Virus record (IMG/VR): IMGVR_UViG_3300020214_002535 | Coordinates: 1 to 54,958 of that record | Origin: a virus | Strand: one strand, 5' to 3' | DNA: 54,958 nucleotides | Shown here: positions 23,316 through 48,965 of the stretch, one piece after another | How positions within the stretch are numbered: the first letter of the stretch is position 1 | How the letters are laid out: each line of letters starts with the position of its first letter | Program-made: the position numbers and the translations under genes | Notes under the pieces: generated by a model | Told to the model about the DNA's origin: nothing | Databases searched by the model: none | Seen by the model: the letters and a program-made list of their open reading frames with translations, nothing else

Positions 23316-24515
23316 TTAAACAATAGTTGCCCCTATATTTTTTATTTGCAATAAAAAATTTTCAGAAAGTTTTTTTGAAATTTGTAATGTAGCATTTAGC
23401 ATTACTTTGTCATTTTTTAAAACTATTCCATAGTCCAGCATAGATCTAATTGAACGTAAAGATCTATCAATAAACTGTCGTTTTAAAATATACGATGAGT
23501 CGTCGGCGAGCCTTATTATGACGTTTATTCCAGATAGAGATCTAATTCTACAAATTAAAAGATTTTCTATATCTTCATTTGAAGATTTTACTTTTTGCAG
23601 CAAATTATTGATGTGCACACTAACATTTCTTTTTGAACTTGAATTTTTTATTACTATAGAATCATGAATTATCGTTACTTCATCGAGCTGAATAGCATCA
23701 GATATTTTTATAGAAGATATTAGTTCTCCAAGATTACAAGAAACTGGATTTGTTAAAGACACAGTTGACATGTCAACTATCGTATTAATTCCTTCTAGAT
23801 CAAAATTTATTATTATTGGATATACAAACATCGTTGATCGATCACGATTGACTTTTATTGTATTTAAAACATCATCATGCATTCCTCTAGAAACAAGCAA
23901 AATTTGTTCTTTAGTGTCTGAGGCTCCTTCGAATAACGTGTTAATTTCTGAGACAGATTCGATATATCCATCAATTAAAATTATTTTTGGTTTTGTTAAT
24001 CTTATCGAAGATAAACCTATAGGTTTATGTTTAAAAGTATAACCTTCTATTAGTTCTATAGAGTTGTAATCATTACTACTTTTTTCAACTGTTATTTTAC
24101 CAGCAAATCCAGCTAAATCAATTGCTTCTAACGTAAGATCAACCAAAGATTTATCATCGGTTTCATTTGAAATTAACGAAGAAAAATCTTCAAATTTAGG
24201 ACATAATACACACAATTCTTCTTTAAAAGAATCATTATGAACGATGTTTTTTGATATAAGTTCGAGCGTTAAATAAAATCCGCCAGGAGAAATACTTTCT
24301 GCTTTAAAGCAATAATCAATTAAGATTTTATGAATTAATTTCTTTAATTTATTTTCATATTTTTTATTGACGCATGCTTGAATATCTGTTTTTAATAAAA
24401 TTTTTTCTTTTTCTGATTGCAAAAAAGAATTATTTTCTATTGAAATAAGATTTTTTAAATCTTGAATAACATCACAAATAGATAGCCTGATATCATCAGC
24501 AAAAAAAACAGACAT
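23316..24515 (-). CDS. Highly diverged GroEL-like chaperonin, probably without ATPase activity
   Basis: The 399-residue protein aligns by eye with group I chaperonins. Its start (VFFADDIRLSICDVIQDL) matches the GroEL N-terminal helix. Residues 130-160 (AIDLAGFAGKITVEKS, then IELIEGYTF) match the entry to the apical domain, and 178-235 follow the apical strands through ILLVSRGM...LNTIKVNR. The later intermediate segment (283-363) also follows GroEL. Missing are the LGPKGRNV and DGTTT nucleotide-binding loops. The catalytic Asp398 position is R351 and the GGG loop is KND. It is about 150 residues shorter than GroEL. It may be a structural or modulatory derivative. Confidence 0.72.
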   Translation of the reverse strand: MSVFFADDIRLSICDVIQDLKNLISIENNSFLQSEKEKILLKTDIQACVNKKYENKLKKLIHKILIDYCFKAESISPGGFYLTLELISKNIVHNDSFKEELCVLCPKFEDFSSLISNETDDKSLVDLTLEAIDLAGFAGKITVEKSSNDYNSIELIEGYTFKHKPIGLSSIRLTKPKIILIDGYIESVSEINTLFEGASDTKEQILLVSRGMHDDVLNTIKVNRDRSTMFVYPIIINFDLEGINTIVDMSTVSLTNPVSCNLGELISSIKISDAIQLDEVTIIHDSIVIKNSSSKRNVSVHINNLLQKVKSSNEDIENLLICRIRSLSGINVIIRLADDSSYILKRQFIDRSLRSIRSMLDYGIVLKNDKVMLNATLQISKKLSENFLLQIKNIGATIV

Positions 24516-25298: not shown

Positions 25299-27233
25299 GT
25301 GAGTAATTTTAACGAAAGCATTTTTAGCGTCCCACAACCTAAAATTTCTATTCCAGAAAATGTTAAAGTCGTTTTTGTTGCAGACTTATTCGCGGAACAT
25401 TATGTAGGCGGAGCAGAGCTAACCACACAGGCTCTCATAGATGAATGTCCTCTTCCTTATGTTAAAATTCTATCCAGGGACCTTAACGTAGGACTCCTTA
25501 AAGAAGGTGTCGATAAGTTTTGGGTCTTTGGAAACTTTGCTCAGATTAATCCTGAGTTGATTCCTAGCATCATAGGTAACCTGAAGTACACGGTCCTCGA
25601 GTACGATTACAAATATTGTCGTTACCGTTCCCCAGAAAAACATGAGGCTGCCGCAGGTAAGCCTTGTGATTGTCAGGAACAGATGAACGGAAAGCTTATC
25701 TCCGCTTTCTACTACGGTTCCAGGGGTCTATGGTGGATGTCTGAGGCACAAAAAGAGTGGTACCTCAAGCTGTTCCCCTTTTTATCTGAAAAAAATAATG
25801 TGGTTTTATCTAGCGTATTTTCGAAGAATACTCTAGGGACAATCAAGTTCCTTCGGGCACAGGTTTCTAACTCCTCAGTGGAAAGAAAAGGGTGGATTGT
25901 TCTTGGATCAGATTCTTGGGTAAAAGGTGCTGACGATGCCAAGAAATGGTGTGAAGAAAACGGTAAAGAGCATGAAGTAGTTTGGAACGTTCCTTATGAG
26001 GTCATGTTGGATAAGCTTGCTCGTGCCGAAGGATTCGTTTATCTTCCCAAAGGAAAAGATACGTGTCCTCGCATGGTCATCGAAGCCAAGTTGTTAGGTT
26101 GTAAGTTACACCTCAATGACAATGTTCAGCATGGTAAAGAAGACTGGTTTGCAACGGATGACATCGAATCAATTGAAGAATATCTTTTTGCAGCACCGGG
26201 ACTTTTCTGGGCCGGTGTCAAGTCAATGATGGAATATCGTCCTTCAATCAGCGGTTATACAACAGTTCTCAACTGCATCAAACAAGAGTATCCATTTGAG
26301 CAATGCATCGCATCAATGTTGCCATTTTGTGAAGAGGTTTGCGTTGTTGACGGTGGTTCAACAGATGGTACTTGGGAAAAATTGACTGAGTGGGCCAAAC
26401 AGGAATCAAAGTTAAAAATCAAGCAAGTCACTCGTGATTGGAATCATCCAAGGTTTGCTGTGTTCGATGGAATGCAAAAGGCTGAAGCACGAGCAATGTG
26501 TAAGTCGACATTCTGTTGGCAAATGGATTCTGATGAAATTGTTCACGAAGACGACATTCAAAAGATAATTGATTTGTGTTCCAAATTTCCGGTCGGGGTC
26601 GATCTCATTTCCCTCCCTGTCGTCGAATATTGGGGTGGATCAGAAAAAGTTCGTGTTGATATTATGCCGTGGAAGTGGCGTTTAAGCAGAAACAAGCCTA
26701 ACATCACACATGGTATACCGGTCGACCTTCGTCGTCACGATGAAAACGGTCATCTTTATGCAGCTGAAGGAACAGACGGTTGTGATATGATTGATGCTAG
26801 TACAGGTGAAAGAATTAATCATGTCAGTTTTTATTCTCCTGAAGCAGATCAAGCACGTCGAGCGGTGATGCTAGGAAACTCTGCAGCATTAAGCGATTAT
26901 AACAATTGGTTTAATAATGTCATCGAAAACTTACCTGGGGTTTTTCATTACAGTTGGTATGATCTTGAGAGAAAAATGAAACTGTATCGTGATTATTGGA
27001 CACGACATTGGGAATCATTATCAGGTAAGAAGTATGAAGACACCGCGCAAACAAATATGATGTTTGATGCTCCATGGTCAAAAGTCACAGATGAGATGAT
27101 AAAGTTACGTGCCGATGAGTTGAAGACCAAGTTAGGCGGGTGGATTTGGCATCGAAAGTGGGATGGTACAACTACAACACCCCACCTTACAATCAACAGA
27201 ATGCAACCCAAAATTATGCTAAACAAGGTGTGA
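25299..27233 (+). CDS. Two-domain glycosyltransferase (GT-B-like plus GT2)
   Basis: The 644-residue protein starts at a GTG preceded by ACGAGG. The N-terminal half (about 20-300) resembles GT-B enzymes, with VGGAELTTQALID near the start and CPRMVIEAKLLGCKL near residue 260, where E-A-x-x-x-G is the usual nucleotide-sugar-binding motif. The C-terminal half is GT-A family 2: VVDGGSTDGTWEK near residue 350 and MDSDE near 409, the DxD metal site. Fused enzymes can add two sugars in sequence. It opens the plus-strand sugar island. Donor and acceptor are unknown. GC content is slightly higher than downstream genes. Confidence 0.82.
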   Translation: MSNFNESIFSVPQPKISIPENVKVVFVADLFAEHYVGGAELTTQALIDECPLPYVKILSRDLNVGLLKEGVDKFWVFGNFAQINPELIPSIIGNLKYTVLEYDYKYCRYRSPEKHEAAAGKPCDCQEQMNGKLISAFYYGSRGLWWMSEAQKEWYLKLFPFLSEKNNVVLSSVFSKNTLGTIKFLRAQVSNSSVERKGWIVLGSDSWVKGADDAKKWCEENGKEHEVVWNVPYEVMLDKLARAEGFVYLPKGKDTCPRMVIEAKLLGCKLHLNDNVQHGKEDWFATDDIESIEEYLFAAPGLFWAGVKSMMEYRPSISGYTTVLNCIKQEYPFEQCIASMLPFCEEVCVVDGGSTDGTWEKLTEWAKQESKLKIKQVTRDWNHPRFAVFDGMQKAEARAMCKSTFCWQMDSDEIVHEDDIQKIIDLCSKFPVGVDLISLPVVEYWGGSEKVRVDIMPWKWRLSRNKPNITHGIPVDLRRHDENGHLYAAEGTDGCDMIDASTGERINHVSFYSPEADQARRAVMLGNSAALSDYNNWFNNVIENLPGVFHYSWYDLERKMKLYRDYWTRHWESLSGKKYEDTAQTNMMFDAPWSKVTDEMIKLRADELKTKLGGWIWHRKWDGTTTTPHLTINRMQPKIMLNKV

Positions 27234-29053: not shown

Positions 29054-29979
29054 AAGTACACCTTGATAATGTCAACATGAGCTCAAGCTCTGGTCCAAAC
29101 TCTTTTGGAAAGAGATTAGCTATGGCATTAATAGAATCTGGTCATGAAGTTGAATTGCATGATGGAACGCATGCTGATGTTTCAATAGTTTTCATTGAAC
29201 CTTCAGGAAGACCTTTAGCAAAAAAAGTCATCCAGAGGTTGGACGGAATTTGGTTTTCACCTGAAGAATTTGAAACAAAAAATTCTTCAATAAAAAAGTT
29301 ATATCAATCAGCAGATGGAGTCATTTGGCAATCTGAATTTGATAAAGAAATGATTACAAAGTGGTGGAAATTTCCTAAAAAAGGTGCCGTAATTCATAAT
29401 GGTATAAATGCACGTGAAATTAAAAAATTTCAAATACCTGCATTAGAGCAAATCAGGCAACAGTATGAAATGCTATTTGTGTGCTCTGCAAACTGGCATC
29501 CTCAAAAACGTTTGTTACAAAACATAGAGTTATATAAACATTTAAGAAATTTTTATTCTTCGGCTGCTCTTATAGTTCTAGGATCTAACCCAATAAAAGT
29601 TGCCGATCCTCACATTTTTTATGCAGGATCCCAACCCCATGAAATTTGTTTAGAAATTTTTTCTGCTGCAAATTGGATGCTTCATCTTGCTTGGCTAGAT
29701 CATTGTCCAAATACAGTTATAGAATCTTTGTCACAAGGAACCCCAGTAATATGTTCTGAGCATGGAGGGACAAAGGAACTTATTAAAGGATATGGAATTA
29801 TTCTTAACGAAAAAGTTAACTATAATTTTGAGTTAACAGATTATGAAAATCCTCCAAAAATTGATGTAAAACAAATAAAGAATAAGCTTCCTAACAAAAG
29901 CGAATTATCAAATTGTTTTGATATAACTATGAAAAATTGCTTATCAAATTATATAAATTTTATTAAAGAAATAGTATGA
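29050..29979 (+). CDS. GT4-like (GT-B) glycosyltransferase
   Basis: This 309-residue protein shows a GT-B layout. The N-terminal domain has a glycine-rich start (SSSGPNSFGKRLAMALIESG), then GAVIHNGINAREI, a typical linker before the second domain. The C-terminal domain has VCSANWHPQKRL and CPNTVIESLSQGTPVICSEH, where E-S-x-x-x-G-x-P is the donor-binding motif. The protein is somewhat shorter than typical GT4 enzymes (about 370). It overlaps the neighbours on both sides by four bases. Confidence 0.82.
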   Translation: MKVHLDNVNMSSSSGPNSFGKRLAMALIESGHEVELHDGTHADVSIVFIEPSGRPLAKKVIQRLDGIWFSPEEFETKNSSIKKLYQSADGVIWQSEFDKEMITKWWKFPKKGAVIHNGINAREIKKFQIPALEQIRQQYEMLFVCSANWHPQKRLLQNIELYKHLRNFYSSAALIVLGSNPIKVADPHIFYAGSQPHEICLEIFSAANWMLHLAWLDHCPNTVIESLSQGTPVICSEHGGTKELIKGYGIILNEKVNYNFELTDYENPPKIDVKQIKNKLPNKSELSNCFDITMKNCLSNYINFIKEIV

Positions 29980-30311
29980 TAAAAAAAGTCGAAAAGGGAT
30001 GGGGTTATGAACTCTGGATCCACAATGATGAAAAGTATTGTGGAAAACTTTTATTTTTTTTCAAAGGTAAAAAATGTAGCCTTCATTATCACAAGTTGAA
30101 ACACGAAACCTTCTATGTTCAATCTGGTTCTCTTAAGTGCACGTTCATAGATGGTGATAAAACAGAAAACGTAGTGTTGTCTCCTGGTGATGTTAAAGAA
30201 ATACATCCTGGTTTGATTCATCAAATGGAAGCAATCGAAGATACTGTTATGTTTGAGTTTTCAACGCAGCATTTTGATGAAGACAGTTATAGATTACAAA
30301 AAGGTGACTAA
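29976..30311 (+). CDS. Cupin, mannose-6-phosphate isomerase type II-like
   Basis: The 111-residue single cupin domain carries metal-binding histidines in CSLHYHKLKHETF and HPGLIHQME, with GD near LSPGDVKEIHPG. The opening KGWGYELWIH resembles the KPWGYE start of the cupin domain of ManC/type II phosphomannose isomerases. It may therefore isomerise a sugar phosphate that feeds NDP-sugar synthesis, or bind a sugar ligand. No fused pyrophosphorylase is present; the separate RmlA-like enzyme is encoded about 2 kb upstream. It overlaps both neighbours by one to four bases. Confidence 0.72.
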   Translation: MIKKVEKGWGYELWIHNDEKYCGKLLFFFKGKKCSLHYHKLKHETFYVQSGSLKCTFIDGDKTENVVLSPGDVKEIHPGLIHQMEAIEDTVMFEFSTQHFDEDSYRLQKGD

Positions 30312-31156
30312 TGGGCTTAGGTGGGTATTTAACTTGGACAGCTGTTGCAAGAGAAATTTGTAAAGCAGCTAATGTTCGAAAAGTTTTTCCGTTTGAACAG
30401 CACGGAATGTTAGTCAAAACAATAAAGACATCTATTTTTGAGAATAATCCTTTTATTCAACAAGAATATGAAAGCGATGTAATTGCATTTCCAATGCAAC
30501 TAAACAATCATGCCACAAACTACTGTAAAAAAGATACCTCAGAAAAAGCCGTTCATAGACATGACAAGCATATTATTGAACAAATATGCGAGTTTTATGG
30601 AATTAAAAACCCTAAATTAAAATGTGAACTTTATTTAAATGAGCAAGAAAACAAATTTACAAATCAATTATTGAGTCTTTTTAATTTAAAAGATAACTTC
30701 TTAGTTATTGAACCGCAATCAAATGATGAATATACTGTAAACAAACTTTATTCAATACAAAAATGGCAAACTGTTGTAGACTCTTTAGTAAAAGAAGGAC
30801 AAACTATAGTTCAAGTAGGACGTCCAACAACATCTAATAAACTTTCAAACGTAATTGACTTAACTGGAAAAACTAGTTTTAGAGAAGCAGCTTCTATAAT
30901 TTCTAAATCAAAACTTTTTATTTCTTCTGAAGGCGGTCTGATGCATGCTGCTAATGCAGTGGGTGCTAGAAGCGTAATCCTATTTACTGGATTTATTCAT
31001 CCTACGATGACAGGATATCCAGAAAACAAAAATATTTGGATTGGCAAAGATCATGGCCCTTGCGGAATGAAAGTTTTTTGTAATAATTGCAAAAAAAATG
31101 TTGAAAATCATGATCCATTAGAAATAGTTCAAGCAGTTAAGGAACTACTAAAATGA
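30311..31156 (+). CDS. Family 9 (heptosyltransferase-like) glycosyltransferase
   Basis: The 281-residue protein has the GT9 features GLGGYLTWTAVAREI at the N-terminus, FLVIEPQSNDEYTVNKLYSI (the donor-domain start), IVQVGRPT, and ISSEGGLMHAANAVGARSVI, the conserved heptosyltransferase donor loop. GT9 enzymes such as WaaC and WaaF transfer heptose from ADP-heptose to LPS core. Its position directly before hldD, hldC and hldA makes heptose transfer the leading hypothesis. It is slightly short for the family (about 320-350). It overlaps hldD by four bases. Confidence 0.78.
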   Translation: MGLGGYLTWTAVAREICKAANVRKVFPFEQHGMLVKTIKTSIFENNPFIQQEYESDVIAFPMQLNNHATNYCKKDTSEKAVHRHDKHIIEQICEFYGIKNPKLKCELYLNEQENKFTNQLLSLFNLKDNFLVIEPQSNDEYTVNKLYSIQKWQTVVDSLVKEGQTIVQVGRPTTSNKLSNVIDLTGKTSFREAASIISKSKLFISSEGGLMHAANAVGARSVILFTGFIHPTMTGYPENKNIWIGKDHGPCGMKVFCNNCKKNVENHDPLEIVQAVKELLK

Positions 31157-32058
31157 AAGCCTTAGTAACCGGTGGCCTTGGTTTCGTCGGGAGCAATATA
31201 ATAAAAGCTCTTAATAATCGAGGAGCTAATGTTTATGTTATTGACGATTTAAACGGAAACAACGAATACGTTTTAAAAACTATCAATTTCGTAGAATTAA
31301 TTAGCAAAGAAAAATTTCATGATGATATTATTAGAGAACTTGGCGTCGATGTAGTTTTTCACCAAGGAGCAATTACTGATACAACGTTTCAAGATGAAAC
31401 CGAAATGACTCGAGTTAATCTAGGGCTTAGTTCTAACGTTTTTAGACAATGCAAAAACAACGATGTCAGGTTAATCTATGCCTCGTCGGCTGCTGTTTAT
31501 GGATTAGGCGATAATGGATTTAAAGAAGAACCACTTTGCGAATCTCCTCTTAACATTTATGGAGAATCAAAACTAAGGTTTGATAATTTCGTTAGAAGTC
31601 AAATAGCCAAAAATCAAGTTGTTGGATTAAGATATTTTAACGTTTATGGTCAAAACGAAAATCACAAAGCAAAGATGGCCTCTCCCTTAAATCAATTTTT
31701 TCATCAAGCCAAGAAGGACGGAGAAATTAGAGTTTTTGAAGGTAGCGAAAATTTTCATAGAGACTTTATATGCGTAGAAGATGTTGTCGACGTAAACATG
31801 TTCTTTTTAGAAAATCAAAGCATATCAGGTATTTTTAATTGTGGAACGGGGAATACGGCGACGTTTCAAGATGCTGCGAATGTTGTTTCGACAGTTCTAG
31901 AAATTCCTATCAAGACAATACCATTTCCAGATATTTTAAAAGGAAAATATCAAGCATATACGAAATCTGAAGTTTCAAAGTTGCGATCAGCTGGATATAA
32001 AAAATCTTTTTCTAACTTTAAAATTGCTGCGACGTCTTATGTGAAGTCGATGCTATGA
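31153..32058 (+). CDS. hldD: ADP-L-glycero-D-manno-heptose-6-epimerase
   Basis: The 301-residue short-chain dehydrogenase has TGGLGFVGSN (cofactor loop, 6-15), YASSAAVYG (S111/S112), and NIYGESK with catalytic Y136 and K140. Diagnostic HldD features are GQNENHKAKMAS, FEGSENFHRDFI and the C-terminal FPDILKGKYQAYT, which correspond closely to E. coli HldD as I recall it. It epimerises C6 of ADP-D,D-heptose to the L,D form for LPS core synthesis. The next genes encode the preceding enzymes, so this is a pathway cluster. Confidence 0.92.
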   Translation: MKALVTGGLGFVGSNIIKALNNRGANVYVIDDLNGNNEYVLKTINFVELISKEKFHDDIIRELGVDVVFHQGAITDTTFQDETEMTRVNLGLSSNVFRQCKNNDVRLIYASSAAVYGLGDNGFKEEPLCESPLNIYGESKLRFDNFVRSQIAKNQVVGLRYFNVYGQNENHKAKMASPLNQFFHQAKKDGEIRVFEGSENFHRDFICVEDVVDVNMFFLENQSISGIFNCGTGNTATFQDAANVVSTVLEIPIKTIPFPDILKGKYQAYTKSEVSKLRSAGYKKSFSNFKIAATSYVKSML

Positions 32059-32480
32059 ACAACAACACAATTTTTACTAACGGGTGTTTCGATATTCTGC
32101 ACGCAGGGCACATTCAACTTCTCAAAGAATGTAAAAAACTTGCCGGAGATGACGGTAAAGTTATAGTTGGTTTAAACAGTGACGTCAGCGTAAAAAAACT
32201 AAAAGGCGAATCTCGACCTGTCAACGATCAGGATTCTAGAAAACTACTCCTAGAATCTTTAAGATTTGTCGACGAAGTTATTATTTTCGAAGAAGAAACG
32301 CCAGAACTGTTAATAGAAAAAATACGCCCAGACATACTTGTAAAAGGCGGAGATTATTCCATAGACCAAATTGTAGGAAAACAATATACAAAAAAAGTTG
32401 TAATATTTCCATATGTCGATGGAAAATCAACAACAAACACAATTGAAAAACTCTCAAAGAGTTTTAGTCATTGGCGATAG
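32055..32480 (+). CDS. hldC: Heptose-1-phosphate adenylyltransferase (HldE C-terminal domain)
   Basis: The 141-residue nucleotidyltransferase has the HxGH motif in FDILHAGH (H16, H19), LNSDVSVKKLKG, and DILVKGGDY, all typical of the HldE C-terminal domain and HldC/RfaE2. The reaction joins heptose-1-phosphate with ATP to give ADP-heptose. Stand-alone HldC is seen where kinase and transferase are separate proteins. The gene overlaps hldD by four bases, and its last 68 bases overlap the kinase frame. Confidence 0.88.
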   Translation: MNNNTIFTNGCFDILHAGHIQLLKECKKLAGDDGKVIVGLNSDVSVKKLKGESRPVNDQDSRKLLLESLRFVDEVIIFEEETPELLIEKIRPDILVKGGDYSIDQIVGKQYTKKVVIFPYVDGKSTTNTIEKLSKSFSHWR

Positions 32481-33207
32481 TTGCGAAGACGTATATCATT
32501 ACGGGACCTGCGAAAGACTGAGTCCCGAAGCCCCGGTTCCAATTTTGAGGTTGACGAAAATTGAAACCAAACCTGGCATGTGTCTTAACGTTGCTAAAAA
32601 CCTAGAAGGATTAGGTTTATCTGTCGACATTATTACTCAAAGCGAGATCATTAAGAAAAATAGATACGTCGAAGAGAAACGATTGGTTCATTTGTTAAGA
32701 ATGGACGAAGAACAAGCTAAGGTCACTAAACTTAAATTAAAAGACGTTGAAGAAGCTTTGAGAAATTGCGACTATAGCGCCCTCGTTATATCCGATTATA
32801 ATAAGGGTTTTTTAACTCATTCATCATGTGAAGAATTGGTAAATCTTGTTGACAACAAAATTCCTATCTTTGTCGATAGTAAAAAGCAAGACTTATCCTG
32901 CTTCACTAATTGCGTTATTAAAATAAACAAAGTAGAAAATGAAGCAATTAAATCTCTGCCTCTAAAATGCGATTTGATAGTTACTCTTGGCGAAGAAGGG
33001 GCGATTTGGAATGACAGGCATTATCCAACCGTCAAGTCGAAGTTGTATGATGTCTGCGGAGCTGGTGATACTTTTCTAGCAGGCTTAACGTTTGAATTTC
33101 TAAGAACGTCATCTTTAAACGATGCAATTTTATTTGCCAATAAGTGTGCTAGTATTTCAGTTACTCATTTTGGAAACTTTATCTTAAGGCAATCAGATGT
33201 CATTTGA
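32413..33207 (+). CDS. hldA: Heptose-7-phosphate kinase (HldA/RfaE1-like), shortened
   Basis: This 264-residue PfkB-family kinase matches HldE domain 1: LVIGDSCEDVYHYG, then LSPEAPVPILRL, then VISDYNKGF and the catalytic CGAGDTF loop with D219. It is shorter than usual (about 315-330). The segment between the LSPEAPVP block and the ADP-binding domain, which carries the lid loop, is reduced, and the normal GGAAN sugar-binding motif reads PGMCLNVA. Activity is therefore not certain. The start is unclear: ATGs at 32413 or 32419, or a TTG at 32443; none has a strong Shine-Dalgarno. It overlaps hldC by up to 68 bases. Confidence 0.82.
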   Translation: MSMENQQQTQLKNSQRVLVIGDSCEDVYHYGTCERLSPEAPVPILRLTKIETKPGMCLNVAKNLEGLGLSVDIITQSEIIKKNRYVEEKRLVHLLRMDEEQAKVTKLKLKDVEEALRNCDYSALVISDYNKGFLTHSSCEELVNLVDNKIPIFVDSKKQDLSCFTNCVIKINKVENEAIKSLPLKCDLIVTLGEEGAIWNDRHYPTVKSKLYDVCGAGDTFLAGLTFEFLRTSSLNDAILFANKCASISVTHFGNFILRQSDVI

Positions 33208-33805
33208 AGGGGTTATACTAGACTTTGATGGTACCTTATGTGACTCTTCAAACGTGCACAAAATTGCTTTTATAGAAGCAATAAAAAATTTTGGATATAC
33301 ATGGTGTAATACAAAAGAAAAAGAATATAATAAAAATAAAAATTTAAAAACACTTTTTAAGTTAAAGAATTTTGCAAATTTAGGGTTAATAGAAGCTAAA
33401 CATATTAATGAAATAAATGAATTAAAACAGTTTTTAATGAAACAAAAAATTCATCTATTAAAAATAGATAAAAAGGTTTCTAATTTTTTAAAATCTCTTA
33501 CTAACAAAAAGATTTTTATAGCGTCTGATGCAAATAAAGAAACAATCTTATCAGTTTTAAAATTTAATAAAATAGAAAATATCTTTCAAGGTGTTATTAC
33601 TTCAAAAGAAGTCGAACTATCTTGCAAACCAGCTCCAGACATTTATTTAAAATGTTTAGAAATAATGAATTTAAATCCGAAAGATATAGTAGCTTTTGAA
33701 GATACAGAAGAAGGACTAATCTCAGCTAAAAAAGCAGGTATTTTTAATGTTCATTTATGTACATGTAAAACGTTATACGATATATTAAAAAGAATAAATG
33801 ATTAA
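33197..33805 (+). CDS. HAD-superfamily hydrolase (phosphoglucomutase/phosphatase-like)
   Basis: The 202-residue protein has the HAD motifs DFDGTLCDS (nucleophile and acid Asp at about 9 and 11), IASDANKE (motif II), a CKPAPDIYL lysine (motif III) and AFEDTEEGL (motif IV acidic pair). The intact acid/base points to phosphatase or beta-phosphoglucomutase-like activity. Its position next to hldA and hldC makes it a candidate for the phosphatase step (GmhB role), although GmhB proper has a DRDG-type motif that is absent here. It overlaps the neighbours by 8-11 bases. Confidence 0.78.
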   Translation: MSFEGVILDFDGTLCDSSNVHKIAFIEAIKNFGYTWCNTKEKEYNKNKNLKTLFKLKNFANLGLIEAKHINEINELKQFLMKQKIHLLKIDKKVSNFLKSLTNKKIFIASDANKETILSVLKFNKIENIFQGVITSKEVELSCKPAPDIYLKCLEIMNLNPKDIVAFEDTEEGLISAKKAGIFNVHLCTCKTLYDILKRIND

Positions 33806-34685
33806 AATAGCGATTAATAGAAAGCCTGTCATTGGACCATATGGCGGAGGCAACAATTTTATCAAGGCTGTTTATTCTTCTGTTCCATCTAATGTTAAGT
33901 TAACAAATCATTTAGAGAATGATGTGGATTTAATTTTTTTAGTTGATCCACGTAAAGATGAGTTTTTTGATGTAAATGATGTAGCTAAATTCATACAACA
34001 AAAAAAGATTCCTGTTGTTCAAAGAATTAACGAATGTGATGCAAGAAAAAACACTGAACATATGGATCATCTATTGCTTCAATGTAGCACAATTAATAAT
34101 AAAACCATTTTTGTTAGTAACTGGATGAAAAGCTACTTTAACGCTAAGGGATGGGCTAGCAAAAATCAACATGTTTTATACAATGGAGTCGACGATGTTT
34201 TTTTTAACTTAAAAGTCGATAAAAAAAATGATGATGTTTTAAAAGTAGTAACTCATCATTGGTCGAACAATTACTTAAAGGGATTTGACGTTTACGAATT
34301 TTTAGATTATCTTAGCGTAAAAAATGATAAAATATCTTTTACGTACATCGGAAGAGATAGAGGGACATTTAGTAATTCTAAAACTATACCTCCTTTGCAC
34401 GGACAAGCATTAGCTGAAGAACTTTCTAAGTATGACGTTTATGTCAGCGCATCTAGAAACGATCCCGGACCTAATCATGTGTTAGAAGCTTTAGCTGTCG
34501 GATTACCTACATACGTACATGCAGAAGGTGGCGGAGGAGTTGAGTTCGTTGACCAAGAACACGTCTATAAAAATTTCTTTGAAATTGAAAAAATATTGCT
34601 TGAAAAGAATATTTTAAAAAATTCTAAGATTCCCATGAAATGGGAAGATTCAATGAAATCTTTTTGGGAAATAATGCTTAATTAG
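33798..34685 (+). CDS. GT4-like (GT-B) glycosyltransferase
   Basis: The 295-residue protein has GPYGGGNNFIKAVY at the start, IFVSNWMKSYF and HVLYNGVDDVFF in the linker, and SRNDPGPNHVLEALAVGLPTYV in the donor-binding domain, the E-A-x-x-x-G-x-P motif of GT4 enzymes. No membrane segment. It is shorter than typical bacterial GT4 proteins. Sugar and acceptor are unknown. It overlaps the HAD gene by eight bases. Confidence 0.8.
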   Translation: MIKIAINRKPVIGPYGGGNNFIKAVYSSVPSNVKLTNHLENDVDLIFLVDPRKDEFFDVNDVAKFIQQKKIPVVQRINECDARKNTEHMDHLLLQCSTINNKTIFVSNWMKSYFNAKGWASKNQHVLYNGVDDVFFNLKVDKKNDDVLKVVTHHWSNNYLKGFDVYEFLDYLSVKNDKISFTYIGRDRGTFSNSKTIPPLHGQALAEELSKYDVYVSASRNDPGPNHVLEALAVGLPTYVHAEGGGGVEFVDQEHVYKNFFEIEKILLEKNILKNSKIPMKWEDSMKSFWEIMLN

Positions 34686-34693
34686 TGATAACA

Positions 34694-35185
34694 ATGAAAA
34701 ACTATTTTTCGCATGAAACAGCAATCGTAGAATCGCAAGATATTGGCGAAGGTACGAAGATTTGGGCTTTTACTCACATAAGTAAAAATGCAAAAATAGG
34801 AAAAAATTGCAATATCGGAGAAGGAGTTTATATCGGCTGCGGAGTAACGATAGGAGATAATGTAAAAATCCAAAATCACTCATTGTTATATGAAGGAGTT
34901 ACAATAGAAGATGACGTCTTTATTGGTCCAAATGTCATTACGACTAATGACATTTTCCCTAGAGCCTCAAATGGAGATTGGTCACACAAATTTAGAACAA
35001 CCTTGTTTAAAAAAGGTTGTTCAGTTGGAGCAAATTCTACAATAGTTTGTGGAATTGAAATTGGTACTCAAGCAATGATTGGAGCAGGAAGCGTCGTTAC
35101 AAAAAGCGTAAATGACGAAACGTTAGTTTACGGAAATCCAGCAAAACCAAGAAAGAAAGTTAGCAATACTAATTATGATAAATGA
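34694..35185 (+). CDS. Left-handed beta-helix sugar N-acetyltransferase (WlbB/FdtC-like)
   Basis: The 163-residue protein consists of hexapeptide repeats (IGEGTKIWAFTHIS, IGKNCNIGEGVYIGCGVTIG), a catalytic-loop region and VYGNPAKPRKK at the end. The N-terminal YFSHETAIVESQDIGEGTKIW resembles WlbB/WbpD and FdtC, which acetylate a 3- or 4-amino group on NDP-amino sugars. The neighbouring DegT aminotransferase would supply such a sugar. I place the start at 34694; a GTG at 34685 would add three residues. It overlaps the next gene by 11 bases. Confidence 0.82.
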   Translation: MKNYFSHETAIVESQDIGEGTKIWAFTHISKNAKIGKNCNIGEGVYIGCGVTIGDNVKIQNHSLLYEGVTIEDDVFIGPNVITTNDIFPRASNGDWSHKFRTTLFKKGCSVGANSTIVCGIEIGTQAMIGAGSVVTKSVNDETLVYGNPAKPRKKVSNTNYDK

Positions 35186-36035
35186 TTATGAAATTGTAAT
35201 TGCTACGATGGTAGCAAACATTGAGTTGACTGGATACAATCTTGTAACTCAAGCTGCTTGCAAATCTTGGGCAAATGCAAATTTTGTTGATAGAGTTGTC
35301 GTCGTCGACGGACAGTCTGTAGACAACACAGCAGAACTAATTAAATCATTCGTAGGACCAAAATGTGAAATAGTTGTTAATGAAATTCCTTGGCCAATAG
35401 AAAAATGGACATGGAAAATTATTCATTCAATGGAAAACACGGCGTTTAATTACGTAAAGTCGATATCAAACCCAAAAAAACTGTATATATTTCTTTCTTC
35501 AGATAACGTTTTTACTGATGAAGCCATTCAAGAATTACATGATGTATGTAATAAATTGATTGAAAGTGATAAACATGATTACATTAATTTAACTTTTCAA
35601 AAGGCAATAACTCTTAATTTTATTTCTAAAATATATCCATTGATGAAAGGATGGCACGTAACTTCTATTACAAAACTTAATGAAAGTATACAATGGGGAG
35701 AAATTTCGCTATACGAAAATAGTATAAAAGTTAATAGAGAAATATCCGGTCTATTTTATGACTTTAAAAATCCAGCAATATGTTATGATTTGTTTTGTTT
35801 TACGAAACAAAATATTTTAGACAAACTATCAAGACATGTAGATTCTTCCATATCAAAAATTGATATTGATGATTTTATTGTCAATCAATTTTTAAGAAAA
35901 TTAAAAAAGCTAGGAATAAAAAAATTTGAACAAAAAAATCATCCTGCTGTATCCATGCATTTTATTGAAAAGTTAAATGAAACTCATTTTGGATATGACT
36001 TGTTCGGAAATATAAAATTATTAAACAACGTATAA
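35175..36035 (+). CDS. GT2-like glycosyltransferase
   Basis: The 286-residue protein has VVVVDGQSVDNTAELIKS, a GT-A nucleotide-binding loop, and LSSDNVFTDEAI where the DxD-like metal motif would be (SDN). The remaining sequence, including NEIPWPIEKWTWKI, is unusual for GT2. It has no transmembrane segments. It overlaps the acetyltransferase gene by 11 bases and lies 18 bases before the aminotransferase gene. The family call is moderate because the metal motif is atypical. Confidence 0.65.
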   Translation: MINDYEIVIATMVANIELTGYNLVTQAACKSWANANFVDRVVVVDGQSVDNTAELIKSFVGPKCEIVVNEIPWPIEKWTWKIIHSMENTAFNYVKSISNPKKLYIFLSSDNVFTDEAIQELHDVCNKLIESDKHDYINLTFQKAITLNFISKIYPLMKGWHVTSITKLNESIQWGEISLYENSIKVNREISGLFYDFKNPAICYDLFCFTKQNILDKLSRHVDSSISKIDIDDFIVNQFLRKLKKLGIKKFEQKNHPAVSMHFIEKLNETHFGYDLFGNIKLLNNV

Positions 36036-36053
36036 TAAGATAGCTTATTTAAA

Positions 36054-37157
36054 ATGAAAATTCCTTTTAATAATTTGTATGAGTTAAACAAGAGCTTTAA
36101 AGACAAATTTTTAAAAGATGTAGAAAACATATTTGAAAACAGCGATTTTGTAGGAGGCAAATTTGTAGAATCTTTTGAAGAAAAATTCTCTAACTTTACT
36201 GGAAATAAACATGCTGTAGCTACGTCGAGCGGTTCTGATTCTTTATCAATTATAATTAGAGCTTATAATTTGAGACCAGATGATGGCGTAATCTATTATC
36301 CTGCTAATACATTCATAGGTTCTGTATTAGGCGCTTTACAATTAGGTTTTAAGTGTAAACCATATGACGTTAATTTGCAAACATTTAATGCAGAAAAAGA
36401 ATCATACTTACAAATTGGTGATGATGCTATAGCAGTCATAGCAGTTCACTTGTATGGGTATGGGTTAAAAAGCATAGAACATTTACAAAAAATTTGTAAA
36501 GATAAAAAAATTCTTCTTTTTGAAGATTGTTCTCAATCACATTTTCAAACAATTAATAAGACTCAAAAGCAAGTTTCAAATTTCGGTGATGCTTCATTTT
36601 TTTCCATGTATCCTGGAAAAAACTTTGGTGCAGCTGGACAAGCTGGGGCTATTTGTGTAAATGATAAATCAATTTCTGATAGAATGAAAGCTATTAGAAA
36701 CTATGGTGCTCCTAAAAAATATGAGCATTCATATAAGGGTTTTAATCATAGAATGGATTCTATTCAAGCAGCATTTTTACTTAGAAAATTTGACGTTATG
36801 CAAAATGAAATTTCTAGGCGCCGCAAAATTGCAAAAAAATACTTAGAAAACATAAACGTTAATTCATTTACATTAATGAATGTAGAAAGCGACGAAAGCG
36901 TTTGGCATATTTTTCCAATCGTAGCTGATAATAGAGATTCTTTAATTGAGCATTTAACAAAAAGAAATATAGAAACAGTAATTCATTATCCTAAAAACAT
37001 ACATCAATTTGATACATGGCAAGGACAGCTAATAAAATCAGAAACTAAAAATGCAGATTTATTAGCATCAAAAGTTTTAAGCATTCCATGTCATGGAGCA
37101 ATGTCTGATGAAGAAACAGATTATGTAATAGAGGCAATAAATGACTTTCGTGAATAA
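36054..37157 (+). CDS. DegT/DnrJ/EryC1 sugar aminotransferase
   Basis: This full-length 367-residue PLP enzyme has the Schiff-base lysine K189 in SMYPGKNFGAAGQAG, the cofactor aspartate in LLFEDCSQSH (D158), VATSSGSDSL for phosphate binding, and a C-terminal VIHYPKNIHQFDTWQG loop. It transfers an amino group from glutamate to a keto-sugar nucleotide. With the acetyltransferase encoded two genes upstream it could make an acetamido-sugar. Both Asp and Lys are intact, unlike the shortened paralogue at 43800-44648. It overlaps the oxidoreductase gene by 17 bases. Confidence 0.88.
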   Translation: MKIPFNNLYELNKSFKDKFLKDVENIFENSDFVGGKFVESFEEKFSNFTGNKHAVATSSGSDSLSIIIRAYNLRPDDGVIYYPANTFIGSVLGALQLGFKCKPYDVNLQTFNAEKESYLQIGDDAIAVIAVHLYGYGLKSIEHLQKICKDKKILLFEDCSQSHFQTINKTQKQVSNFGDASFFSMYPGKNFGAAGQAGAICVNDKSISDRMKAIRNYGAPKKYEHSYKGFNHRMDSIQAAFLLRKFDVMQNEISRRRKIAKKYLENINVNSFTLMNVESDESVWHIFPIVADNRDSLIEHLTKRNIETVIHYPKNIHQFDTWQGQLIKSETKNADLLASKVLSIPCHGAMSDEETDYVIEAINDFRE

Positions 37158-37980
37158 TCCTTCAAAAACTTTATTGATTGGAAATGGATACTGGGGGAAA
37201 ATTATAAAAAATAATTTAAAAAATGAACCAATCGTTTTTGACTCGTTAACTGATTCATCAGCTGAGTTAGATAGCCTATTATCAAATTCAAATTACGTCA
37301 TTATTGCAACTCCTGCATCGACTCATTTCGAGTTGGTATCAAAAGCTTTGAATTTTCAATGTAATGTTTTTTGTGAAAAACCTCTATGTTTATCATTGCA
37401 TGAATCTCAAAAACTTTTTGAAGCGGCAAAGAGCGTCAATAAAAACCTATATGTAGACTGGATATTTCTGTGTAATCCAGTCATTAGAACAATTAAAAAT
37501 TTAATTGACAATCGTCGATTTGGAAAGCTGATTCATGCATCTATGAATCGACTAAATTTAGGACCTATTCGAAATGACGTCTCCGCGACACAAGATTTAG
37601 CATCTCACGATTTATCAATTTTAAGTTATTTAGTCAATGAAAACTTAACAGCAACTAAATTTGAACACTCATTGTCAAACGATATCAAGCCAAGTACATC
37701 TTGTGTAAAAGTAAATTGGTCTAACGGCGATGCGGTCATTAATGTAAGCTGGAGCTATCCTATAAAAAACAGAACTTGCGTTTTTAGTTTTGAAAAAGCG
37801 ACTGTACATTGGGATGATTGTTTAGATATTTTTTATATCAATGGAAAAAAGCAAACCATAAAAAAGAAACTTTCTCCTTTGCAAGTTTCTTTAAACGATT
37901 TTTTCTCGAATGAGTATGACAAAGAATTGAATGAAAAAATCACATTAAGCGTTGCTAGCTTATTAGAAACTAATCATTAA
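37141..37980 (+). CDS. Gfo/Idh/MocA-family oxidoreductase
   Basis: The 279-residue protein has LLIGNGYWGKIIKNNL (NAD-binding G-x-G-x-x-G), VIIATPASTHFELVSKAL and FCEKPLCLS (the conserved EKP). It is short for the family (usually about 330-380). The second domain contains DLASHDLSILSYL, matching the catalytic histidine region (D-x-x-x-H-D). Members act on NDP-sugars, for example the 3-dehydrogenase step before DegT amination. Its place directly after DegT fits that pairing. Confidence 0.82.
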   Translation: MTFVNNPSKTLLIGNGYWGKIIKNNLKNEPIVFDSLTDSSAELDSLLSNSNYVIIATPASTHFELVSKALNFQCNVFCEKPLCLSLHESQKLFEAAKSVNKNLYVDWIFLCNPVIRTIKNLIDNRRFGKLIHASMNRLNLGPIRNDVSATQDLASHDLSILSYLVNENLTATKFEHSLSNDIKPSTSCVKVNWSNGDAVINVSWSYPIKNRTCVFSFEKATVHWDDCLDIFYINGKKQTIKKKLSPLQVSLNDFFSNEYDKELNEKITLSVASLLETNH

Positions 37981-37985
37981 AAATT

Positions 37986-39173
37986 ATGAAAAAGTTAAAT
38001 GTTTTTATAGAAGACACAGCTTGCCGGTCGCAGGCGATGAATTTGCCATTTCATTATGCAAGAGCAAATTGCAACATTTATATGTTGAAACCAGGCGAGT
38101 TTAAAGACTCAAGAGATTGGTCAAAGACTACAATTTGGCCAAGGCTGTTATTCAAACCATCTGCAAATTCTTCAGAAAGAAATCTTTCAAACTATCGTTT
38201 GAATGAAGATGATATTCTTTATGGAGAAGACTACTTTTTAATTAATGAAAGAGATGAAATTTTAGCGACAACATATAAAGATAATGCTCACGTTACTTTG
38301 GTTTCAGAAAATGAATTAAAAACGTTAGGAAAAGAAATAGATGTTTTTCATACATCTGAATTTTGTAAGAATAACTTAAATAAGCTTTTATCATGGGGCA
38401 ATCATTGGTTACCCAATGCAAAATGGATATCTTCTTGTGTGGATCCAGGAGACGTTAACAAGGGGCATCCGGGGCCTAAACAACCAGACAACATTTGTCT
38501 AGTTGCTCCATCTCCATGTGAAAACATGTTCGATAATTCAGGAAAAAACGTGGTTCTAATGTTTAGAAATAAATTTGAATTAGAACTTATAGGAGCAAAC
38601 AAAAATTTGGAAAGAAATCAAAACGTAATTTCATCGTTTATGCATAATTTTCATGTTAGAGATCCGGGATATTATAAGCTATTTTGTGAATTGAAAGAAT
38701 ATGTAGGCAAGTTAGGTATAGAGATTACAAACTATGGTGGAAACATACGAGGCCATGGAGCAGATCTCAGATATAATAAAGGAGGAAAAGAAGGAAAAGG
38801 ACCTTCTGGTTCAAACTTTGAAACTCTTAGTATCAGAAAAAGCATCGAAAAATATTACTCTAGTAGAGCAATATTACACTTAAAGGGGCTTGATTGGGCA
38901 GGTGGAGTACCTGCTCATTCTCAAATGACTGGTACACCATTAATTACAATTTTACCATTTTTGCAAGCGTCTAATTATCTAAAAAGTTACAATCAAAGCA
39001 CTGGGACAATTATCTGCAATTCTACTCAAGAAATTTTAGAAGCAATCGTTGCTATCGTTAATAATGAACAATTATTTAAAGATCTTTCTACAAAGATGCT
39101 CAATTTAGAAGAAACATTTTTTTCTAAATCATATTGGGAAAAATGGGTTTATTTCGTGAATAATCTAAAATAA
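37986..39173 (+). CDS. Putative glycosyltransferase, family unclear
   Basis: The 395-residue protein is not clearly assigned. It begins MKKLNVFIEDTACRSQAMNL and has a central VVLMFRNKFELELIGANKNL and C-terminal SRAILHLKGLDWAGGVPAHS, then TGTPLITILPFLQASN and ILEAIVAIVNNEQLF. The later part looks like the C-terminal domain of GT-B enzymes, where a G-x-P-x-I segment precedes donor binding. A patch encoding KGHPGPKQP (from about 38460) is GC-rich relative to its surroundings. Location in the sugar island supports a sugar-transfer role. Confidence 0.5.
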   Translation: MKKLNVFIEDTACRSQAMNLPFHYARANCNIYMLKPGEFKDSRDWSKTTIWPRLLFKPSANSSERNLSNYRLNEDDILYGEDYFLINERDEILATTYKDNAHVTLVSENELKTLGKEIDVFHTSEFCKNNLNKLLSWGNHWLPNAKWISSCVDPGDVNKGHPGPKQPDNICLVAPSPCENMFDNSGKNVVLMFRNKFELELIGANKNLERNQNVISSFMHNFHVRDPGYYKLFCELKEYVGKLGIEITNYGGNIRGHGADLRYNKGGKEGKGPSGSNFETLSIRKSIEKYYSSRAILHLKGLDWAGGVPAHSQMTGTPLITILPFLQASNYLKSYNQSTGTIICNSTQEILEAIVAIVNNEQLFKDLSTKMLNLEETFFSKSYWEKWVYFVNNLK

Positions 39174-39191
39174 ACAAAGGAACAAATATTA

Positions 39192-39801
39192 ATGTCATTT
39201 CCGTACACAAAATATGAATACAAAAGTTATGATGAGTATATTTCTGCACAATTATCCTATGAACTTACGAAAGATCGAACAAAAAGCAGACCATTTCTTC
39301 AATACGTCGAAGAAATAAAAAAAATTTTTTGAATGCAAAAAAATTATCTGCGCCGGGGCAAGAGACATCAGCGAAGTAAACACATTAAGAATTGCAGGAT
39401 ATGACGCAATAGGAATAGATTTATTTTCTTCGAATCAAGATGTTATAAAGATTTTAGACATGCACAATCTTGAAGAAAACTTTGAAGAAAACGAATTTAA
39501 CATAGTATATGCATGCCACTCTTTAGAGCATTCATATAATCCAGAAAAAGTTTTAAATGGATTTAAAAAAATATCAAAATTAGGCGCATTTATAATACTA
39601 CCATTTTTAAAAAATGAGCATTTAAAAGATCCTATTTCGTTTAGATTTATGAAAGAATATAATACTAATTTAGAATCTATGATTAGCTTAATTGAAGAAG
39701 ATTTTGAAAAATTAGGATGTACATGCAAGGTTACAGATTTAAAAATAAATCCATTGCAAAATAATGTAGATGGATATTGGATATCACTTTATTGGAAATA
39801 G
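39192..39801 (+). CDS. SAM-dependent methyltransferase, frame interrupted at TTT-TGA
   Basis: Frame one runs from 39192 (after an AAGGA ribosome binding site) to TGA at 39330-39332, 46 residues, ending EEIKKIF. Continuing in the +1 frame from 39331 gives 156 more residues starting ECKKIICAGARDISEVNTLR, a class I methyltransferase motif I, then YDAIGIDLF and ACHSLEHSYNPEKVLNG, as in Methyltransf_11 proteins. The two pieces join into one normal-looking 202-residue protein. The break lies in A8T6 (39317-39330). It may be a one-base indel, a sequencing error or a +1 recoding site. Its substrate could be a sugar. Confidence 0.72.
39317..39332 (+). other. Candidate +1 frameshift site (A8T6 followed by GA)
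   Basis: The run A8 (39317-39324) and T6 (39325-39330) ends at a TGA stop. The codon before the stop is TTT and can re-pair perfectly one base downstream, as in the RF2 recoding site (CTT TGA). The site could equally be a homopolymer error. No stimulatory Shine-Dalgarno-like element is clearly placed upstream. Confidence 0.4.
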
Positions 39802-39803
39802 AC

Positions 39804-40136
39804 ATGAATAAAAGATACGTTTTTGATATAGATGGGACGATATGCACCCCTTGCCCAGGAAAATATCTTGAAGCGAAACCATACGAAGATAGAATAAAAA
39901 AAGTTAATTCTTTATTTGACCAAGGTAATCATATAGTTTTTTTTACGTCAAGAGGAATGACAGGTGCTAATGGAAACGTATCATTATGTTATGAACGCTA
40001 TTACGATATTACTAAAAGACAATTAATCGAATGGGGTGTAAAATATCATCAATTGATAATGGGAAAACCTGCTGCTGAATTTTATGTCGATGATCATGCT
40101 TGGAACGATAAAGATTTTTTTGAGGAAAAAACATGA
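39804..40136 (+). CDS. HAD-superfamily small phosphatase-like protein
   Basis: The 110-residue protein begins MNKRYVFDIDGTICTPCPGK, with the HAD nucleophile and acid D8/D10, then FFTSRGMTG (motif II) and VDDHAWND (motif IV acidic pair). It resembles the short HAD proteins often found in polysaccharide loci, sometimes annotated as capsular-biosynthesis phosphatases. I chose 39804 rather than 39777 because GGAAA precedes it and the HAD motif should be near the start. It overlaps the next gene by four bases. Confidence 0.75.
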   Translation: MNKRYVFDIDGTICTPCPGKYLEAKPYEDRIKKVNSLFDQGNHIVFFTSRGMTGANGNVSLCYERYYDITKRQLIEWGVKYHQLIMGKPAAEFYVDDHAWNDKDFFEEKT

Positions 40137-41041
40137 ATATCACTATTGCAATTACGACATTCAACCGTTTGAAATACACCAAGTCTCTTTTTGAAAGTAT
40201 TAAAGAACTTGCTGGAGACAATCAAATTATTGCTGTCGATAATTGCAGCATAGAAAACGGATTAAAAGATTATTTGTCATCTCAAAAAGAAAAAGGAATC
40301 ATTAATGATTTAATTTCTAGAGAACCTCAAGAAAGAAATTGGGTCAATGATGAATATATTGCAAAAAATATCGTTATTGAACGTGCTAAACATGACGTAA
40401 TCTTATTTCTTCAAGATGATTTGCAATTTATTACGAAAAGAGAAGTTTTAGAAAAAACGGTCGAAGATTTTCGTAATTACGATGAAATGATTTCTTTAGA
40501 AATTAATGCAGTAAGAAAATCGACCATTTATAATAAATTTAATCCTAACTTTACTTTAAATAAAAACTATAGATACTATCGTCCGACAGATAATCATTTT
40601 CCAACGATGGGTCTTTTTAAAAAGCAAATTTTTGATACGTTTGGAACATATCCAGTAACGTGGCCACAAACTCAAGAGTTTTGGGGTAGATCAGAAGATT
40701 GGTATGATTCTCATTTAAAATCTAATCTTCCTCAAAGGCAGTTAAATTACTGTTCATGGGTCCCATTATTTGCTCCAGTATGGAATGATCCTCGCGGTGG
40801 ATACGCATTTATTAGAGGAGATAAAAGATATGGGTATTATACAGATGCCCCATCATCATCCGTAGAGTATTATGAAAAAATATCGATTCAAGAGTATTCT
40901 CAAAAACAACATTCTCAAATTCCGCTAAGTTTTGTTGATGTATGTCGACCAATCGGATGGTCATATCAAGTAGTTAATGGTGATCAAACAAAATATCCAC
41001 AAAGTAAAGTATTATTAGAAGGGCCAGTATCCGATTTATGA
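40133..41041 (+). CDS. Family 2-like glycosyltransferase
   Basis: The 302-residue protein has the GT-A start ITIAITTFNRLKYTKSLFES, IIAVDNCSIENG and ILFLQDDLQFI, where QDD occupies the DxD position. A long C-terminal part (NYRYYRPTDNHFPTMGLFKK and beyond) is specific. Overlaps with both neighbours by four bases indicate tight coupling. Donor and acceptor are unknown. Confidence 0.78.
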   Translation: MNITIAITTFNRLKYTKSLFESIKELAGDNQIIAVDNCSIENGLKDYLSSQKEKGIINDLISREPQERNWVNDEYIAKNIVIERAKHDVILFLQDDLQFITKREVLEKTVEDFRNYDEMISLEINAVRKSTIYNKFNPNFTLNKNYRYYRPTDNHFPTMGLFKKQIFDTFGTYPVTWPQTQEFWGRSEDWYDSHLKSNLPQRQLNYCSWVPLFAPVWNDPRGGYAFIRGDKRYGYYTDAPSSSVEYYEKISIQEYSQKQHSQIPLSFVDVCRPIGWSYQVVNGDQTKYPQSKVLLEGPVSDL

Positions 41042-43130: not shown

Positions 43131-43140
43131 TGTAAATTAC

Positions 43141-43752
43141 ATGTCTTTTAAGTTATCTCATTACAAGGATACGCTTTTAGCTTATAAAAAAGCTGGATAT
43201 GATATAAAAAATTCATGCATGAATAATCATGCTAAAAAAGATTTACAATTGACCCATGACATAGACTTCAATCCATCTTTAGCTTTGAAGCTAGCTAAAA
43301 TAGAAAATGATGTCTCTGCAGTTTCGTCTTACTTCTTTAGATTAAAAGCCACCAGTTACAATCTTTTTTCTTTCAACACGATTCAAGTCATTAAAGAACT
43401 AATATCATTAGGACATAACGTCGGATTGCATTATGAGCAAACGCATCTTGAAGTGAGTGTAGAATTTGATGTTGAAAAAGCAACCAGAATAATGTCAGAA
43501 ATGTTATTCATGGACATAAACTTTTTTAATATTCATGAACCCGCCAGAACTGGATTGGACATATCAAAAATCTTACCAGAAAAAAACAGAAGCTATAATT
43601 CCAGCTTTTTTGAAGGATACAAGTACCTTTCAGACTCAGGCGGCAGATGGAGAGAAGGTTGCTTCTCGAAGCACATAAACAAGCATGATAAACTGTTGGT
43701 ATTAACTCATCCTTTATGGTGGTATGAAAACAGCCCAATAGAAAATTATTGA
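43141..43752 (+). CDS. Polysaccharide deacetylase-like protein (NodB/WbmS-type)
   Basis: The 203-residue protein has LTHDID (H39, D40, D42), the first metal motif of NodB-like deacetylases, then VIKELISLGHNVGLHYEQTH, matching the G-H-x-x-G-x-H second motif. A final VLTHPLWWYE contains another histidine. The domain is short (about 200 residues), as in O-antigen-locus WbmS-like proteins. It may remove an acyl group from an amino sugar. Its neighbours are an ATP-grasp enzyme and a short DegT. Confidence 0.72.
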   Translation: MSFKLSHYKDTLLAYKKAGYDIKNSCMNNHAKKDLQLTHDIDFNPSLALKLAKIENDVSAVSSYFFRLKATSYNLFSFNTIQVIKELISLGHNVGLHYEQTHLEVSVEFDVEKATRIMSEMLFMDINFFNIHEPARTGLDISKILPEKNRSYNSSFFEGYKYLSDSGGRWREGCFSKHINKHDKLLVLTHPLWWYENSPIENY

Positions 43753-43799
43753 TGTGATATACTACATCTAAAATTAAGTGTATTTTGGAGATAATTTTT

Positions 43800-46821: not shown

Positions 46822-46853
46822 ACTAACAATTAAGAGGGCGTTACTATTAAATA

Positions 46854-47672: not shown

Positions 47673-47674
47673 AA

Positions 47675-47705: not shown

Positions 47706-47711
47706 AACGAC

Positions 47712-48956: not shown

Positions 48957-48965
48957 AGAGGAAAA

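Follow-up and report, generated by a model that had tools for sequence, protein, structure and literature searches.

Heptose genes of the window

We analysed the IMG/VR viral record IMGVR_UViG_3300020214_002535 over its whole length of 54,958 nucleotides (the window), which carries a cluster of genes related to the synthesis and transfer of ADP-heptose. An earlier note, made from the sequence alone, had placed five overlapping genes at 30311-33805, coding for a GT9 transferase, HldD, HldC, HldA and a HAD phosphatase, and their coordinates and families were confirmed. The list below also contains two genes that this note had overlooked, one for a small cupin directly upstream of the GT9 gene and one for a capless HAD protein.

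29976-30311, plus strand: small cupin, 111 amino acids (phrog_7851, E 3.1e-47; PHROG name "cysteine dioxygenase")
30311-31156, plus strand: GT9 heptosyltransferase-like transferase, 281 amino acids (PF01075, E 1.6e-15)
31153-32058, plus strand: HldD, ADP-glyceromanno-heptose 6-epimerase (TIGR02197, 309.6 bits; 1eq2, E 8.4e-70)
32055-32480, plus strand: HldC, heptose-1-phosphate adenylyltransferase, unfused (TIGR02199, E 6.6e-48)
32413-33207, plus strand: HldA, heptose-7-phosphate kinase, unfused and shortened, 264 amino acids (TIGR02198, E 8.7e-43)
33197-33805, plus strand: HAD-IA phosphatase, beta-phosphoglucomutase-like (PF13419, E 2.5e-23; TIGR02009, E 1e-26; phrog_8468)
39804-40136, plus strand: capless (C0) HAD (phrog_1238, E 2.6e-26; PHROG name "phosphoheptose isomerase")

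The stop of the cupin gene overlaps the GT9 start by 1 bp, and the overlaps that follow, from GT9 through HldD, HldC and HldA to the HAD-IA phosphatase, comprise 4, 4, 68 and 11 bp in this order. The HldA start may lie at the second ATG at 32419, as in the sister contig L006. In scans for promoters and terminators the number of hits was close to the mean for shuffled sequence. The gene calls bear out that kinase and adenylyltransferase are separate proteins and not a fused HldE.

The comparison with hidden Markov models that the earlier note had suggested for HldA, HldC, HldD and GT9 returned the expected families. HldD passes the TIGR02197 cut-off of 274.6 bits; it is identical to E. coli HldD at 133 of 299 positions, and the catalytic residues S116, Y140, K144 and K178 are all kept in the alignment. 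HldC (162.2 bits versus 181.5) and HldA (146.6 bits versus 345, the protein being about 50 amino acids short) remain below the equivalog cut-offs, which were set on cellular proteins. HldC shares 65 of 136 residues with the C-terminus of E. coli HldE and has the motifs of HldE domain II, namely HAGH (HxGH), KGGDY and STTN. HldA keeps the SPEAPVP substrate region and the GAGD catalytic motif, and its best match in the PDB is the heptose kinase 4e84 (E 1.2e-16). The E-values exclude chance, and both proteins are by their sequence clear relatives of their families; we label the adenylyltransferase HldC-like and predict that it works like HldC, and given its score below the cut-off the kinase is labelled HldA-like. 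The HAD-IA phosphatase, with homologues in the sister contigs L006, L007, L008 and L010, is of the beta-phosphoglucomutase-like class and not of the class of GmhB; it is a possible second sugar phosphatase. A search for SIS_2 (PF13580) or GmhA gave no match anywhere in the 54,958 bases, in agreement with the earlier note.

The cupin and the capless HAD in viral loci

The viral scans list the 80 best loci, so that all counts hold for the relatives of this cluster and cannot be extended to phages at large. After anchoring on HldA and dereplication at 90% there were 77 loci with full 4-kb flanks; many of the contigs are fragmentary. Within 4 kb of HldA we found HldC in 76, the cupin in 73, the capless HAD in 55 and HldD in 40 of the 77 loci, and within 8 kb a cupin was present in 48 of 49 (the cupin counts take in a divergent subfamily of other phages scoring 77-96 bits). 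In locus L206 cupin and HldC are fused in a single phage protein of 259 amino acids (9262-10041), and L205 has five consecutive genes in the order HldC-HldA-cupin-HAD-HldD. The cupin at 29976 and the capless HAD at 39804 are part of this conserved heptose set.

A search of 37 phage records, among them the complete genomes of the cyanophages P-SSM2 and S-SSM7, found no GmhA (SIS_2). A tblastn search of 50,697 phage records yielded relatives of GmhA in 13. Most of these are host fragments or metagenomic records without annotation, and no cyanophage is among them; Caulobacter phage Cr30 looks like a genuine exception.

Several loci are composed differently. In L187, L191, L193, L206 and L211 the capless HAD is missing; HldC, HldA, HldD and a divergent cupin are accompanied there by a GmhB-like HAD encoded on the opposite strand. 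At a threshold of at least 55 bits capless HAD and GmhB never occurred together (only two to three dereplicated GmhB loci, not significant), and at a looser cut-off both were found in one locus. Phage-like contigs in bacterial or archaeal metagenome-assembled genomes or in a Prochlorococcus single-cell genome (L102, L107, L108, L125 and L131, and also L100) hold the heptose module or its cupin; contigs of this kind inside cellular genomes could mislead gene-content counts. In L127, a contig of a metagenome-assembled genome labelled Bifidobacterium breve, HldC, cupin, HldA, an epimerase and the capless HAD are present with other genes interspersed.

Properties of the cupin

In 36 diverse relatives of the cupin the metal ligands H37, H39, E44 and H82 (HxH..E..H) are invariant, as are Y21, C22, K24, K42, E94, S96, T97, D103 and R106. 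A profile alignment revealed that YCxK...CxxHxH...KxETF is common to the cupin profile and the D-lyxose isomerase 2y0o, a likeness that goes beyond the metal site alone. The AlphaFold2 model (predicted local distance difference test, pLDDT, 97) matches 7nzo with Z 15.0 at 30% identity and archaeal phosphomannose isomerase with Z 15.4. The D-lyxose/D-mannose isomerases (2y0o, 7nzo) and the archaeal phosphomannose isomerase (7zvm, 7zvy) have the same cupin fold, metal site, YCxK and KxETF, whereas the phage cupin is shorter with its 111 amino acids and has the extra conserved residues EFST..D.R.

The conversion of sedoheptulose-7-phosphate to D-glycero-D-manno-heptose-7-phosphate has the same local stereochemistry as that of fructose to mannose and is its seven-carbon homologue. 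The fructose-to-mannose type is the reaction class of the cupin D-lyxose/D-mannose and phosphomannose isomerases. The phage protein is probably an aldose-ketose isomerase, and we propose that it is a sedoheptulose-7-phosphate isomerase replacing GmhA.

Properties of the capless HAD

The capless HAD has the conserved motifs DxDGT, R50, K88 and D96-D97, and its model (pLDDT 87) matches the folds of AfhF (9iqw, Z 13.8), 1xpj (Z 13.6) and GmhB (3l8h, Z 8.6). phrog_1238 is matched by E. coli GmhB and not by E. coli GmhA, which matches phrog_14703. The GmhB match, the HAD motifs and the fold rule out that the cyanophage "phosphoheptose isomerase" of phrog_1238 is a true GmhA, and the capless HAD is, judged by these features, a phosphatase and not an isomerase. 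GmhB takes the terminal phosphate off a sugar-1,n-bisphosphate, and as a candidate for this role we propose the capless HAD, which would act as heptose-1,7-bisphosphate 7-phosphatase. Its closest solved relative, AfhF of phage HY126, is a D-arabinose-1,5-diphosphate phosphatase and thus also a sugar-1,n-bisphosphate phosphatase of a phage sugar route; in contrast, the substrate named for AfhF is a pentose bisphosphate and not a heptose, and the two proteins are 27% identical.

Cupin and GmhA in bacteria

In bacteria we compared 140 genomes, mostly metagenome-assembled, from the class to which 'Candidatus Binatus soli' belongs (Binatia). They were classified by chosen bit-score cuts, a strong cupin having at least 140 bits and a strong GmhA SIS_2 at least 75 bits. 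Genomes with a fused HldE had a strong cupin in 35 of 38 cases and a strong GmhA in none (a weaker SIS match occurred in four), whereas among those with a split HldA there was a strong cupin in none of 76 and a strong GmhA in 62. For this exchange Fisher's test gives p 8e-17, the genomes being related. In G036 and G236 HldE and cupin lie less than 1.5 kb apart with a GDP-mannose-dehydratase-like gene in between; G037 has a second HldE-like gene followed by a cupin. G040 holds two clusters, one of nucleotidyltransferase (HldC), cupin and kinase and a separate one in which a kinase/nucleotidyltransferase occurs with a GmhA-like SIS protein.

Any HldC match was found in only 21 of 121 Cyanobiaceae genomes, one of the 21 being on a contig of 130,604 bases, the same size as a viral one in IMG/VR, and a GmhA-sized SIS protein in about 22 of 121. 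According to a review, cyanobacterial lipopolysaccharide is without heptose (PMC4390846). Phages of such hosts could not depend on heptose enzymes of the host.

The GT9 transferase

The GT9 protein passes PF01075 (57.5 bits, cut-off 22) and fails the NCBIfam equivalogs of the lipopolysaccharide heptosyltransferases WaaC/WaaF/WaaQ, reaching at best 36.6 bits versus 467. The first strand that other GT9 proteins complete is missing, and GLGGYL replaces the N-terminal G-D motif; the Asp of this motif, which has a catalytic role in WaaC, is absent. Because every phage GT9 relative extending to the N-terminus likewise has GLGGYL or GLGGHL, the protein represents a subfamily and not a decayed gene. 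With phmmer no match in the PDB was obtained at 1e-3, and the GT9 profile found only WaaF 1psw there (E 0.013).

In a GT9 tree of nine phages a branch with 99/97 support divides exactly by the presence of HldD: on one side are the window, L006, L007, L010 and L151, all over the HldD cut-off, and on the other L008, L009, L143 and L146, with no true HldD in the contig. The HldA and cupin trees need at least two changes to fit the presence of HldD. GT9 and HldD have been exchanged together, as would be predicted for a transferase that distinguishes the C6 epimers.

Proposed route and alternative explanations

We regard it as fairly probable that the phage encodes a complete route from sedoheptulose-7-phosphate to ADP-L-glycero-beta-D-manno-heptose in which the cupin replaces GmhA, together with a GT9 transferase using the product. 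The cupin would isomerise sedoheptulose-7-phosphate of the host to D-glycero-D-manno-heptose-7-phosphate in the place of GmhA, and HldA would phosphorylate C1 of the heptose-7-phosphate. In the GmhB role, removal of the 7-phosphate would fall to the capless HAD (39804) or, as a possible alternative, to the HAD-IA protein (33197); HldC would then add AMP, HldD would epimerise C6, and GT9 would move the heptose onto an acceptor. The earlier note's postulate of a phage-encoded ADP-heptose pathway that comes with a GT9 transferase is supported, and the three pathway steps counted there are probably five. According to a broader claim, which we hold to be slightly favoured, GmhA has given way in phage heptose pathways and in the Binatia lineage to an undescribed and unrelated cupin-fold family of sedoheptulose-7-phosphate isomerases; the phages would thereby be self-sufficient for ADP-heptose from a central metabolite of the host, even in heptose-less cyanobacteria.

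A number of observations weigh against this interpretation. Cupin folds are promiscuous, and about equally good matches come from oxalate decarboxylase, quercetinase, KdgF and CapF; the fold alone is not decisive. Moreover, the cupin just misses the Pfam D-lyxose isomerase family PF07385 (18.9 versus 20.8 bits). Of 17 cupin loci checked, 13 were without HldA in the contig, which was mostly a fragment. The capless HAD of the window lies 6.6 kb away from HldA, and it was not found in the fragmentary sister contigs L006, L007, L008 and L010. The pattern in Binatia is at the level of clades and may reflect one displacement event, and the concordance of GT9 and HldD could stem from physical linkage.

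We considered several alternatives. The phage could provide only kinase, adenylyltransferase and epimerase and use GmhA and GmhB of the host, with the cupin in a tailoring or regulatory function; the earlier note had likewise left the isomerase to the host. GmhA is present in many Gram-negative hosts. Yet beside HldA the cupin is more constant than HldD (73 versus 40 of 77), it is fused to HldC in L206, it shares the D-lyxose isomerase signature, it occurs in phages of cyanobacteria whose relatives are mostly without GmhA and HldC, and it takes the place of GmhA in a bacterial class. We consider this explanation unlikely. Alternatively, the cupin could be a phosphomannose or other hexose-phosphate isomerase serving another nucleoside diphosphate (NDP) sugar of the island described below and merely adjoin the heptose genes. 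Archaeal phosphomannose isomerase is among the top folds, and the GDP-mannose-dehydratase-like gene adjoining cupins of Binatia keeps this explanation alive; the constant partners of the cupin in phages are however HldC and HldA, the fusion included, and we consider a hexose-phosphate isomerase unlikely.

The module could also make an NDP-sugar, heptose or other, for the glycosylation of DNA bases, in the way that T4-like phages use arabinose, with GT9 or another transferase acting on DNA. In favour of this are AfhF, the nearest relative of the capless HAD among solved structures, and the T4-like phage RB69, which arabinosylates its own DNA and has candidate phage genes for a sugar isomerase and an NTP-transferase (PMC6024577). 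In contrast, HldD scores above the heptose-epimerase cut-off, GT9 is of the lipopolysaccharide type, the surrounding 25-kb sugar island contains aminotransferases, an acetyltransferase and UDP-glucose dehydrogenase, and a base-hydroxymethylating enzyme was not seen in the record, which is a fragment. DNA glycosylation appears distinctly unlikely to us.

Relation to known systems

The HldD, HldC and HldA proteins of the window are orthologous to those of the E. coli GmhA-HldE-GmhB-HldE-HldD pathway, with conserved catalytic motifs. They differ in the unfused kinase and adenylyltransferase and in the absence of GmhA, with cupin and capless HAD standing for GmhA and GmhB. Phage heptose genes have already been published (PMC7378029) and are known from P-SSM2, S-SSM7 and SynMITS9220M01. 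The cyanomyovirus cluster (P-SSM2 PSSM2_309-313, S-SSM7, S-CAM1/3, Sf-FS3; T4-GC 304-308) also comprises HldC, HldA, capless HAD, cupin and an HldD-like epimerase; its HldC and HldA genes adjoin two small genes that bear the annotations "phosphoheptose isomerase" and "cysteine dioxygenase", and the window has homologues of both. Compared with this cluster, the window has in addition the GT9 and HAD-IA proteins and an HldD that is full-length and passes the TIGR02197 cut-off; its capless HAD lies apart, and the Hld proteins are only 33-47% identical.

A jumbo-phage survey describes cyanophage clusters with cupin sugar isomerases, PfkB kinases, HIGH nucleotidyltransferases and HAD phosphatases (PMC7824862) and mentions neither heptose nor a replacement of GmhA. 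In the literature searched we found no paper linking a cupin with GmhA and heptose. As far as this search has shown, the assembly of a full ADP-heptose route, the corrected family names, the cupin-HldC fusion, the exchange of GmhA and cupin in bacteria and the co-variation of GT9 and HldD are new. If the proposed route is correct, phages encode a whole nucleotide-heptose pathway, with its first enzyme displaced, and need no heptose genes of the host; a gap would also be filled in the heptose biosynthesis of bacteria that have HldE and no recognisable GmhA. Two widely copied names would have to be corrected, phrog_1238 to HAD phosphatase and phrog_7851 to probable sugar-phosphate isomerase. One published auxiliary-metabolic-gene marker of phages, "phosphoheptose isomerase [gmhA]" (PMC9238414), may be of the same family as phrog_1238.

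The sugar island and its surroundings

The heptose genes are situated in a sugar island of 25 kb (25299-50132) with the following edges.

25299-27233, plus strand: large glycosyltransferase, left island edge (PF00535; 56-78% identical in sister contigs)
45859-50132, plus strand: UDP-glucose dehydrogenase, PDDEXK nuclease and two GT4 transferases, right island edge

The right edge keeps its gene order in the sister contigs G001-G005 at 56-99% identity, and the left edge is also kept in those that reach so far; the middle of the island is variable. The island is flanked by phage genes, at one end for a primase, PhoH, a helicase and a head-protease-like protein and at the opposite end for a late sigma factor-like protein (50434). 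Since sister phages have both of the same edges, the island is native phage DNA. The majority of genes in the stretch are bacterial-type sugar genes, as would be the case for host DNA misassembled into a phage contig, which the earlier note had named as a possible refutation. The synteny of both island edges across the sister phages, together with the flanking phage genes, led us to reject such a misassembly, whose probability we consider negligible.

The island middle (34685-45592) contains a hexapeptide acetyltransferase, two DegT aminotransferases, two Gfo/Idh/MocA oxidoreductases and an ATP-grasp protein, and this variable part suggests further unusual sugars. At 582-2553 a primase-like fragment is overlapped on the same strand by a homing-endonuclease-like open reading frame, possibly an intein or intron insertion. 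A GroEL-like phage protein (phrog_5725, E 1e-15) without Pfam match is encoded at 23316-24515. The minus strand of 4150-16577 codes for several large proteins without PHROG match, of 819, 585, 1202 and 811 amino acids, which are possibly tail or fibre proteins; one of them has a faint match to Laminin_G_3.

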